A stretch of 35,923 nucleotides of DNA from a virus. A program made the translations under genes and the position numbers. The DNA lies in the IMG/VR virus record IMGVR_UViG_3300032235_000059, positions 1 to 35,923 of that record. One strand, 5' to 3'. The notes below the pieces were generated by a model. The model worked only from the letters and a program-made list of their open reading frames with translations, did no database searches and was not told the origin of the DNA. The stretch's first letter is position 1, and each line of letters starts with the position of its first letter. Positions 17,669 through 22,436 of the stretch are shown here, piece after piece.

Positions 17669-17783
17669 GCAATACCAATTTGGCCTACGTTATTGCGCTG
17701 GCTGTAAGAAGTCTAGGTCATCAATCCAATTCGGAGACCTAGAGGTTTGCAAGATTTGTCAGTTGAGAGAGGTTAAGGTATAG
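17607..17783 (+). CDS. Zinc-ribbon micro-protein
   Basis: A 58-residue frame starting at TTG 17607, preceded by AGAGGA at good spacing. The C-terminal half has two CxxC knuckles, 'CAGC' (30-33) and 'CKIC' (48-51), separated by 14 residues, a compact zinc ribbon. The N-terminal 25 residues are Ser/Thr/Lys-rich and probably disordered. The promoter of the structured RNA at 17791 lies within its last codons. Confidence 0.6.
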   Translation: MKEEPSKSLAPTSSDKTGTTKQYQFGLRYCAGCKKSRSSIQFGDLEVCKICQLREVKV

Positions 17784-17784
17784 T
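17756..17784 (+). promoter_or_regulatory. Sigma70-like promoter of structured RNA 1
   Basis: TTGTCA (17756-17761; five of six consensus bases) and TATAGT (17779-17784; five of six) are separated by exactly 17 bases. Predicted transcription start about 17790-17792, where the first hairpin begins. The promoter overlaps the end of the zinc-ribbon gene. Confidence 0.7.
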
Positions 17785-17790
17785 TTTACT

Positions 17791-17893
17791 CACGCTTGGC
17801 GGCGTGTTTAGGCAAGCCCTAGAAGGGACTCTGCTGGTAGCCTACCAGTCCGCCAACACCTTTATCGGTGAGAGTCTCTCCTAGGGCTTTTTT
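17791..17893 (+). ncRNA. Structured RNA 1: hairpin plus long terminator with three-way junction
   Basis: P1 is CACGC (17791-17795)/GCGTG (17802-17806) with six-base loop TTGGCG. P2 pairs 17814-17832 with 17871-17889: 17 Watson-Crick pairs, one G-U and one mismatch. P2 is capped by P3 (CTGGT 17834-17838/ACCAG 17844-17848) and P4 (CACC 17857-17860/GGTG 17867-17870). The single strand between P3 and P4 contains CGCCAA (17851-17856), fully complementary to the P1 loop. Six T residues follow P2 (17888-17893), as in an intrinsic terminator. It ends 13 bases before the replication gene, so it may be an attenuating leader or a free RNA. Folded by eye only. Confidence 0.65.
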
Positions 17894-17906: not shown

Positions 17907-18545
17907 ATGTTTTTGAAGCCTAAGAACTGGGAGAAATTCCAGCACTATCGAGATCGTTGTCCACCTTGGATAAAGCTGCATCGGGATTTGCTGAACGATA
18001 GGGCATACATGAACCTACCGCTTGCTAGCAAGGCGATAGCACCCTTACTTTGGTTGTTAGCAAGTGAGTCAAAAGACGGTAGTTTTAATGCTGCTAGCGA
18101 TGAACTAGCATTTCGCTTGCGTATTGCTAGCAAGGACATAGAGTCAGGACTTAAGCCATTGATAGATAATGGCTTTTTTGTTGACGCTAGCACTATGCTA
18201 GCACCTTGCTTGCAACTTGCTATCCCAGAGAGAGAGACAGAGAGAGAGACAGAGAAAGAGACAAAGAAGAAATCTAAAAAGTTTGTTGTTGAAATTTCTA
18301 AACCTGATGACGTTAGTGATGATGTTTGGTCAGACTGGTTAAAACATAGGGAATCAAAAGAAGCTAGCGTAACTGGAACTGTTATCAAAAAAATACGAAA
18401 TGAATCAGCAAAAATTAGTATGACTTTGGAATCTGCTATGGAAATGATGTGTCTTAGAAACTGGCAAGGATTTCAAGCAGATTGGGTTAAACCAAAAGAA
18501 ACTAAGCAGACAGACTGGTGGATGAACGACAGGAGGATCAAATGA
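17907..18545 (+). CDS. Replication initiator-like protein (O/DnaT-like)
   Basis: A 212-residue protein. The N-terminal domain ('PPWIKLHRDLLNDRAYMNLP', 'ASKAIAPLLWLLASESKDG', then 'ASDELAFRLRIASKDIESGL') looks like the winged-helix region of phage replication initiators. A Glu/Arg/Thr/Lys repeat linker ('RETERETEKETKKKSKK') leads to a C-terminal domain ('VSDDVWSDWLKHRESKEASV ... WQGFQADWV') of the type that contacts helicase in DnaT-like proteins. The ATG at 17907 is chosen because the alternative GTG at 17868 lies in the terminator arm of the RNA above. A likely origin is embedded in the gene. The helicase is encoded 1.2 kb downstream. Confidence 0.75.
   Translation: MFLKPKNWEKFQHYRDRCPPWIKLHRDLLNDRAYMNLPLASKAIAPLLWLLASESKDGSFNAASDELAFRLRIASKDIESGLKPLIDNGFFVDASTMLAPCLQLAIPERETERETEKETKKKSKKFVVEISKPDDVSDDVWSDWLKHRESKEASVTGTVIKKIRNESAKISMTLESAMEMMCLRNWQGFQADWVKPKETKQTDWWMNDRRIK
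18021..18290. other. Candidate replication origin inside the initiator gene
   Basis: Within 345 bases the hexamer GCTAGC occurs six times (18024, 18093, 18126, 18186, 18197, 18363), the first within the 12-base palindrome CTTGCTAGCAAG and the third within TTGCTAGCAA. Degenerate partners lie at about 18057 and 18105. Right after the cluster comes an A/G-only-like purine tract with GAGAGACA units (about 18226-18274) and an A+T-rich stretch. Lambda's origin has this order: iterons then an asymmetric A+T-rich purine tract, inside gene O. Five copies fall in the same Ala-Ser codon phase, so codon bias could explain part of it. Confidence 0.45.
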
Positions 18546-20779: not shown

Positions 20780-20945
20780 GGCTGAAGTCCGTCAGGTTCT
20801 GGCTTGGCGTACTGAGGACAGGGGCAAGGCGATGGACTATCTGGCTAGGGTCAAGGGTGACAGGCGGGAGAAGCTAGAGAAGGATTGCCGAGACCAATGG
20901 GAACGTGGGAACCGAGGTAAATGGGGGGATTGGCGTGGTCTATAA
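20745..20945 (+). CDS. Small basic protein of unknown function
   Basis: A 66-residue helical protein starting at TTG 20745 inside the helicase end (35-base overlap), with AGGGGCGAG upstream. 'RHRAEVRQVLAWRTEDRGKA' and 'EKLEKDCRDQWERGNRGKWG' form two Arg/Glu-rich helices. A similar pattern ('VL.WR.EDR..A..YL') occurs near replication genes in other phages. It may bind DNA; nothing more can be said. Confidence 0.65.
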   Translation: MTLITEEVLRHRAEVRQVLAWRTEDRGKAMDYLARVKGDRREKLEKDCRDQWERGNRGKWGDWRGL

Positions 20946-21216
20946 ACGGGTGGATTCAAATCAAGTCCAGATTGTTAAAGAACTAAGACGCTTGGGGATG
21001 GAAGTCGAGCATCTTCACGGGGTAGGCAAAGGATGCCCGGATATTCTGGTGGGATACAAGGGCAAAAACGTCCTGCTAGAGATAAAGAAGGACGATAAGG
21101 CCAAGCTGACCCCGGATCAGGTCTTGTGGCATCACTCGTGGAAAGGTCAGGTAGCGGTGGTCACTAACGTAATTGACGCAATAAAGGCGGTGAAAGAGGT
21201 TTGTAGGGTTGACTGA
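20935..21216 (+). CDS. VRR-NUC-like nuclease
   Basis: A 93-residue protein. The PD-(D/E)xK nuclease core is visible: 'RVDSNQVQIVKELRRLG' helix, 'VGKGCPDILVGYKGKNVLLE' (Asp of GCPDILV and Glu of LEIK), then 'LEIKKDDKAKLTPDQVLWH'. VRR-NUC proteins in phages act as Holliday-junction or flap nucleases in replication and recombination. GTG 20935 follows GGGGGG at fair spacing; GTG 20905 would add 10 residues. The promoter of RNA 2 overlaps its last codons. Confidence 0.85.
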   Translation: MVYKRVDSNQVQIVKELRRLGMEVEHLHGVGKGCPDILVGYKGKNVLLEIKKDDKAKLTPDQVLWHHSWKGQVAVVTNVIDAIKAVKEVCRVD

Positions 21217-21237
21217 TACCGTCCGAATAGGTACTAT
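21209..21237 (+). promoter_or_regulatory. Sigma70-like promoter of structured RNA 2
   Basis: TTGACT (21209-21214; five of six consensus bases) and TACTAT (21232-21237; four of six) with a 17-base spacer. Predicted start about 21244, two bases before the first hairpin. The -35 box overlaps the stop codon of the nuclease gene. Confidence 0.65.
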
Positions 21238-21243
21238 GGCCTT

Positions 21244-21353
21244 GTCTATGTGCGGGCATGGATAAAGATCAAAGCCCTTAAAGCTTTGGTTCTCACCAGA
21301 AATGGAAAAACGTGCCCGCACACGTAGAGAGCCAAGACTTTAGGGGCTTTTTT
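21244..21353 (+). ncRNA. Structured RNA 2: hairpin plus long terminator with kissing loops
   Basis: P1 is CTATG (21246-21250)/CATGG (21257-21261) with loop TGCGGG. P2 pairs 21271-21294 with 21327-21350: 20 Watson-Crick pairs, three G-U and one mismatch. Its cap is a three-way junction: P3 CCA-GAAA-TGG (21296-21305) and P4 ACGTG (21310-21314)/CACGT (21321-21325) with loop CCCGCA. The loops of P1 and P4 are perfectly complementary; the wider match is ten bases (21249-21258 with 21313-21322). A T run (21348-21353) closes P2 as an intrinsic terminator. The layout parallels RNA 1. Folded by eye only. Confidence 0.7.
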
Positions 21354-21483
21354 GCGTTTAGACCGTACTGGTCGCGTTAGAAATGAACCCATGTTCGGGG
21401 TTGCTGCCAAGGAAACCGAGTGCGCTTATGAGGCCAGCGCGAGAGCTTTCTACAGGTATCTCAGGAACAGAGCAAATAGGTGA
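21352..21483 (+). CDS. Possible 43-residue protein after RNA 2
   Basis: A frame from TTG 21352, with AGGGG in the terminator arm as a potential ribosome-binding site, or from ATG 21391. The reading 'GVAAKETECAYEASARAFYR' looks protein-like, with a helical, Ala/Arg-rich content. If the TTG start is used, folding of the RNA 2 terminator would hide the ribosome-binding site. Evidence is thin. Confidence 0.3.
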   Translation: MRLDRTGRVRNEPMFGVAAKETECAYEASARAFYRYLRNRANR

Positions 21484-21719
21484 TGTCGGATAGGCCACGA
21501 TACGGTCGCTCTGGAAATTGAATGTAGACCTTCTGGGAGTAGCAGTCCTAACGGATGGCTAGAGAAGTGTGTGGTATCACCTTCTTGGCCTCTCCTATTG
21601 CCTAATGTAAATAGTATTAAGCTATAGAAATACATTTACCTATAGAAATTATTTAGTTTACCGATGGAAACCTTTTATGAGAGTATCTGTCCATCGACAA
21701 CGCAACACAGGGGAACGAA
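21484..21719. other. Gene-poor stretch with hairpin and tandem repeat
   Basis: I see no solid gene. Very short frames open at 21483 (12 codons) and 21572 (16 codons). A hairpin AGAAG-T-GTG/CAC-CTTCT with loop TGGTAT lies at about 21577-21597. Beyond it the sequence turns A+T-rich and holds two copies of CTATAGAAAT at 21622 and 21640. This may be the promoter and operator for the genes from 21720. Confidence 0.5.
21622..21649. repeat. Tandem CTATAGAAAT repeat
   Basis: Two perfect copies of the ten-base unit (21622-21631 and 21640-21649), 18 bases apart, within an A+T-rich region flanked by GTAAAT/ATTTAC arms. The core ATAGAAAT is shared with the inverted repeat at 17447-17466. An operator for one regulator, perhaps the XRE protein, is plausible. 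Confidence 0.5.
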
Positions 21720-21931: not shown

Positions 21932-22120
21932 ATGGAATCAATCAAAATCGAAGGTGTAGAGCAGCATCAAGGCATTTACGTTGACACCATAGGCGAGGAT
22001 GTCTGGGTCAACATCATCGTCAGAAACGGTAGTGCCAATCTCTGTATAACGCCAGAGAACGCAGAGAAACTAATCGAGGCAATCCGAGTCGCTATCGTAG
22101 AGGCTTCAAATGAAGGTTGA
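21932..22120 (+). CDS. Small phage protein, unknown function
   Basis: A 62-residue acidic protein with a strand-rich first half ('IYVDTIGEDVWVNIIVRNGS') and a C-terminal helix ('NAEKLIEAIRVAIVEA'). TGGGGAAC precedes the ATG. The layout, a small sheet packed by one helix, resembles many phage early micro-proteins. It overlaps the next gene by 11 bases. Confidence 0.65.
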   Translation: MESIKIEGVEQHQGIYVDTIGEDVWVNIIVRNGSANLCITPENAEKLIEAIRVAIVEASNEG

Positions 22121-22436
22121 CCCTCACGAGGCAATCGACTTTATTTACCGAAACTCTACGGCTTACGCTAAGGCTAAGGCTGAGGTAACGTACCTAGAGG
22201 AGTTCAGGAAATCCAAGAAGGCAATCCTATATGCTCAGTCAATGGGAAAAACCGTAACTGACAGGGAGAATCAGGCTTACGCTCATCCAGAGTATCAGGA
22301 GCTTCTAAAGGGGCTTCAGGCGGCTGTAGAGGCTGCGGAAGAACTTAGATGGCAGTTGATAGCGGCACAGGCTCGTATCGACGTATGGCGGTCTCAGGAG
22401 GCTAGTAATCGGACTATGGATCGGGTAACTCAATAA
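22110..22436 (+). CDS. Coiled-coil early phage protein
   Basis: A 108-residue almost entirely helical protein: 'AIDFIYRNSTAYAKAKAEVT', 'LEEFRKSKKAILYAQSMG', 'LLKGLQAAVEAAEELRWQLI', 'AAQARIDVWRSQEAS'. The pattern 'YAKAKAE..YLEE.RKS..A.L' is recurrent in phage genomes next to HNH/DUF1364-type genes. The function is unknown. Confidence 0.75.
   Translation: MKVDPHEAIDFIYRNSTAYAKAKAEVTYLEEFRKSKKAILYAQSMGKTVTDRENQAYAHPEYQELLKGLQAAVEAAEELRWQLIAAQARIDVWRSQEASNRTMDRVTQ

Follow-up and report, generated by a model that had tools for sequence, protein, structure and literature searches.

Complementary segments of the c4 RNA decide on premature termination before replication or lytic genes in the immunity systems of phages P1 and P7. 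In the plasmid antisense attenuators of the pT181 type, a terminator is controlled by loop pairing, the partner is a separate antisense RNA made from the other strand, and orthogonal types arise through the loop letters. Two mutually complementary loops are also found within the packaging RNA of phage phi29, which is part of the packaging motor. Another phage RNA, P4 CI, offers a functional parallel to the RNA described here (PMC4825925). The IsrK RNA of prophage Gifsy-1 has its own promoter and ends at a terminator, and read-through gives a longer message (PMC4825925). GOLLD and ROOL are phage-linked RNAs with covarying kissing loops (PMC12286853).

We analysed 35,923 nucleotides of viral DNA, the entire IMG/VR record IMGVR_UViG_3300032235_000059 (referred to as the window), which contain a predicted RNA of ~110 nt, termed RNA A, with two complementary hairpin loops. 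Like P4 CI and c4, RNA A is a phage RNA with complementary segments and possible termination before genes. However, P4 CI and c4 act mainly in trans, as processed RNAs with outside targets, whereas both partners of RNA A lie in the loops of one putatively terminated RNA. The cargo of RNA A includes endonuclease ORFs and another RNA, unlike that of P4 CI and c4, and no prophage copy of it was found in 84,980 bacterial and archaeal genomes, whereas P4/P1-type systems belong to lysogens. RNA A differs from the pT181-type attenuators in having its partner in cis, and from the phi29 packaging RNA in its fold and in its location among early and replication genes; no packaging-gene linkage was seen near it. 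GOLLD and ROOL are several times larger, form homo-oligomeric cages and are included in Rfam, whereas RNA A ends in a predicted terminator and matches no Rfam family; the GOLLD and ROOL models of Rfam gave no match to it. IsrK is similar to RNA A in being a small RNA that starts at its own promoter and ends at a terminator, but hypervariable matched loops, present in RNA A, are not reported for IsrK in the available part of PMC4825925.

Architecture of RNA A

RNA A is encoded on the plus strand, just downstream of an endonuclease gene (20905–21216, plus strand; phrog_93 and phrog_5702, Holliday junction resolvase). A sigma70-like promoter, TTGACT-17-TACTAT (21209–21237), predicts a transcription start at ~21244. 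In many relatives with unrelated upstream DNA, the predicted start lies likewise ~7 nt past a −10-like box. The RNA would begin with hairpin H1 (21244–21263), in which the arms GTCTATG and CATGGAT (21244–21250 and 21257–21263) enclose loop L, TGCGGG (21251–21256). A linker (21264–21270) leads to the 5′ arm of a long terminator stem (21271–21294), which carries a small apical hairpin a, CCA-gaaa-TGG (21296–21305), the most variable part of RNA A, and an apical hairpin b (21311–21324), in which CGTG and CACG (21311–21314 and 21321–21324) enclose loop L′, CCCGCA (21315–21320). The 3′ arm of the stem (21327–21350) and a U-run (21348–21353) complete the unit. Compared with shuffled sequences RNA A is strongly folded (z = −5.3), and RNAfold closes one extra U-G pair in the first loop.

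The original prediction that loops L and L′ are exact complements, and that the match extends to ten bases, was correct in both coordinates and letters: TGTGCGGGCA (21249–21258) is the exact reverse complement of TGCCCGCACA (21313–21322). With G-U pairs allowed, the match comprises 12 pairs (21249–21260 with 21311–21322). In this one sequence a match of 10 bases is only moderately unusual: dinucleotide shuffling of the 110 nt gave one in 15 of 3000 cases, and a 10-base inverted complement within 110 nt occurs at about four other places in the window. Since the match is only moderately rare in a single sequence, we searched for relatives.

Relatives of RNA A and covariation of the loops

Scans of sequence collections yielded ~65 distinct relatives of RNA A in freshwater viral contigs. 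The pattern used, which matched 73 contigs, combined terminator-stem letters with the CGTG that is constant in hairpin b and was blind to the loop letters. With the upstream endonuclease gene as a query, 76 loci were obtained, in about ten of which RNA A directly follows the gene. The pattern gave two chance matches without the loops in the bacterial and archaeal genomes mentioned above, hence no sign of lysogens. No Rfam 15 family scored above the gathering threshold and nothing meaningful appeared at E-values up to 10, while blastn against phage and plasmid records returned only chance 20-mers in mycobacteriophages. Text searches confined to open papers found no published description of RNA A. 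The possibility of a tRNA or tmRNA was rejected, as none was detected.

Alignment of 58 relatives showed near-invariant stems and loops that change together. H1 (88% paired, two pairs with double changes), hairpin b (100% paired) and the terminator stem (99.3% paired, five pairs with double changes) are all conserved, and the linker measures 5–10 nt. RNA A is predicted to end in an intrinsic terminator, with a G+C-rich stem followed by a U-run of 5–8, in 56 of the 58 relatives. The two relatives that carry complementary loops without a U-run (L100:10368-10484 and L105:607-724) suggest that loop pairing may serve a purpose beyond termination.

The loops are exact reverse complements in 57 of the 58 relatives (47 read by an automatic parser and ten more by eye from the same output), and make up ~20 different loop pairs, among them TGACGG/CCGTCA, TGTGGG/CCCACA, TGCGGT/ACCGCA, TAACGG/CCGTTA, TGTCAGG/CCTGACA and GGCAG/CTGCC. 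Watson-Crick pairs occupy 347 of the 348 loop-loop cells (long-range pairing within 21249–21322 in the window); there are 76 double changes, distributed over all seven loop-loop column pairs, and no one-sided (G-U) changes. The covariation score of the loop-loop pairing was 0.545, compared with 0.123 in shuffles and at most 0.037 when the pairing was slid. The terminator stem, unlike the loops, has many G-U intermediates. When sequences that differ at six or fewer positions outside the loops are compared in pairs, divergence per position is four times as high within the loops. Judged by the comparison of relatives, which is decisive here, the loop complementarity is not due to chance, and the covariation indicates that L–L′ base pairing is real and selected. 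At the level of sequence, L and L′ are a kissing-loop pair: compensatory changes maintain the complementarity of the two hairpin loops. RNA A would represent an undescribed, widespread family of phage RNAs, in which covariation is unusually clean and the loops are matched without wobble intermediates. The sole relative with imperfect loops, L082:9073-9189, has one bulged base; its apical loop equals that of L110, which suggests that it is a recombinant.

Elements downstream of RNA A

In most loci, RNA A directly precedes a non-coding segment of ~250–300 nt, termed element B (21354–21612 in the window, plus strand). Element B occurs in several subtypes, which nearly always start with GACCG/GGTCG, and has no Rfam match. 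Its stability when folded alone does not exceed that of shuffled sequences; despite this we regard it as a structured RNA, because its helices covary, with strong covariation in the 5′ domain (97.8% paired, 43 cells with double changes).

In seven loci (L040, L045, L047, L061, L090, L125 and L215), the U-run is immediately followed by the ATG of an ORF of 167 or 175 aa. The ORFs of L090 and L125 match HNH_3 and NUMOD4, and the other five look alike by eye. The only candidate ribosome site of these ORFs, GAGGG (AGGAGG in L125), falls within the terminator stem, on its 3′ arm, seven to eight bases upstream of the ATG. RNA A, a possible riboregulator, is linked both to ORFs of HNH endonuclease type and to a large structured RNA. 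Units of RNA A and a NUMOD4-HNH-type ORF were delimited at L047:3892-4525 and L088:9980-10395; the former lies directly upstream of the gene that directly follows A and B in L082, L084 and others. A 108-aa gene (22110–22436, plus strand) is found in several relatives directly after the unit of A and B or of A and HNH. The contig that includes both L045 and L088 carries RNA A twice, and the loops of the two copies differ.

L035:3447-3635, L092, L110, L117 and L130 have an extra module between A and B, which is ~125–190 nt long where complete and is closed by a long, variable terminal stem. In one phage lineage (L098, L121, L127, L138 and L144), a Cro/YdaS-like gene with its terminator precedes A and B, and a replication-type gene follows them.

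Predicted folding path and possible functions of RNA A

The folding path was approximated by minimum-energy nested folds of the growing chain, with kinetics and polymerase pausing left out. The loop-loop helix was part of the minimum-energy fold once the second loop had emerged in 57–58 of the 58 relatives, and shortly before the end of RNA A in 44–55. The terminator was predicted in 56–58 relatives once its lower stem was complete, and the fold composed of H1 and the terminator was reached by the U-run in 54–58. In terms of alignment columns, the loop-loop helix prevails from 85 to ~106, and the terminator from 112; this order of predicted folds is conserved throughout the 58 relatives. The original prediction also held that folding can switch between two local hairpins with complementary loops and one long-range helix. 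Both alternatives are conserved and the predicted path agrees with this proposal; a switch is plausible, because the loop-loop helix is predicted as the minimum-energy fold until the last strand of the terminator is made. Since RNAfold ignores kissing and pseudoknots, these folds do not tell whether L–L′ pairing is incompatible with the terminator stem; given a linker of 5–10 nt and a stem of ~23 bp, the two might coexist.

Our tentative interpretation, in which our confidence falls just short of balanced, is that RNA A constitutes a new family of leader/terminator RNAs of phages and works as a cis-acting attenuator. The 5′ base of H1, the hairpin that presents loop L, would be the transcription start, and ~60 nt later the complementary L′ would emerge as the loop of hairpin b, which tops the terminator stem. 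If the nascent L–L′ helix forms first, folding of the terminator stem would be delayed, and some polymerases would read into the downstream cargo, either RNA B or the HNH endonuclease ORF. If the terminator stem wins, transcription would stop and the stem, whose 3′ arm includes the ribosome site, would bury that site. The terminated RNA of ~110 nt, with the same two loops, could in turn act on nascent copies of its own type. The position of RNA A fits a cis-acting attenuator, with a putative promoter, a predicted terminator and a fixed place directly before the cargo. The conserved alternative helix and the upstream position are consistent with a terminator/antiterminator leader, which the nested-fold prediction also supports.

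An explanation that we regard as unlikely, but serious, is static intramolecular kissing, in which H1, docked along the terminator stem, would form a kissing contact with hairpin b through its loop, producing a compact, stable small RNA or a stronger terminator without any switch. Two loops of 6–7 nt with closing G-C pairs are typical of kissing interactions, the lack of G-U pairs among the 347 paired loop-loop cells would be expected if wobble is costly, and the confined linker length and the retention of the loops in the two relatives without a U-run are consistent with such docking. As complementarity alone would matter, the loop letters would be free to drift; that loops and stems change at different rates needs no selection, and therefore does not decide on this explanation. 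By itself, static kissing leaves unexplained the position before ORFs whose ribosome site lies in the stem.

It is rather improbable that RNA A acts self-specifically in trans, with the terminated RNA kissing those nascent leaders that share its loop type and setting their termination by analogy with P4 CI and P1/P7 c4 RNA. Diversification of the loops would then keep co-resident copies or co-infecting phages from regulating one another, which agrees with ~20 loop types on near-invariant stems and with the different loops of the two copies on one contig. No other site in the contigs appears to be targeted, as 118 own 7-mers of the loops were counted where 109.6 were expected, which is no excess. 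A related RNA of the window, RNA1, stands before a replication gene, as is the case in P4 (PMC4825925). On the other hand, the 84,980 genomes gave no sign of lysogens, many phages share identical loop types, and a pure cis role would yield the same covariation. We are similarly doubtful about an extended version, in which RNA A is an address tag of mobile phage units (A with the HNH endonuclease, A with RNA B), each copy is marked by a loop code, and recognition by the short terminated RNA is restricted to nascent RNA that shares this code. If so, many copies could self-regulate without cross-talk. The natural loop pairs represent a ready set of candidate orthogonal regulators.

Homo-oligomerization, with L of one molecule paired to L′ of the next in dimers or rings, as in phi29 pRNA or GOLLD/ROOL, appears quite improbable: complementary, covarying loops on one molecule do occur in GOLLD/ROOL assemblies (PMC12286853), but RNA A has the position of a leader and a terminator hairpin as its last element, its linker probably permits intramolecular pairing, and no association with structural or packaging genes was found. 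A DNA-level inverted repeat with protein half-sites, or an artefact of templated correction between the arms, without RNA function, is highly improbable. Identical half-sites or such correction would also leave no G-U intermediates, but the arms coincide with the loops of a pair of conserved hairpins, which are part of a promoter-terminator unit, and the terminator stem covaries with many G-U intermediates.

RNA1 and other leaders of the replication gene

RNA1 (17786–17893, plus strand) has the same architecture as RNA A and ends in a predicted terminator. It is located between its own promoter, TTGTCA-17-TATAGT (17756–17784, plus strand), and a replication initiator gene (O/DnaD-like; 17907–18545, plus strand; phrog_26426 and phrog_678), of which it would be the leader. 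The H1 loop TTGGCG (17796–17801) pairs with CGCCAA (17851–17856), and the linker AGGC (17810–17813) pairs with the loop GCCT (17840–17843). In 17 relatives of RNA1, both the H1 loop-junction pairing and the pairing of the linker with the loop of hairpin a are kept, with double changes in both, and the predicted folding path is like that of RNA A. In the window, RNA1 ranks third among the matches to the RNA A model (E = 0.044; E = 0.0066 in L088), so that it is likely kin to RNA A, with E-values that are borderline. The same design is present twice in one genome, before a replication gene and before a second structured RNA.

A third type of leader was observed at the place of RNA1 in L014, L026, L044 and L159. 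It has a hairpin GACG-loop-CGTC, the loops of which (TCATCAC, TCTCAC and CGTTAC) pair with downstream GTGATGA, GTGAGA and GTAACG, respectively, and covary with them.
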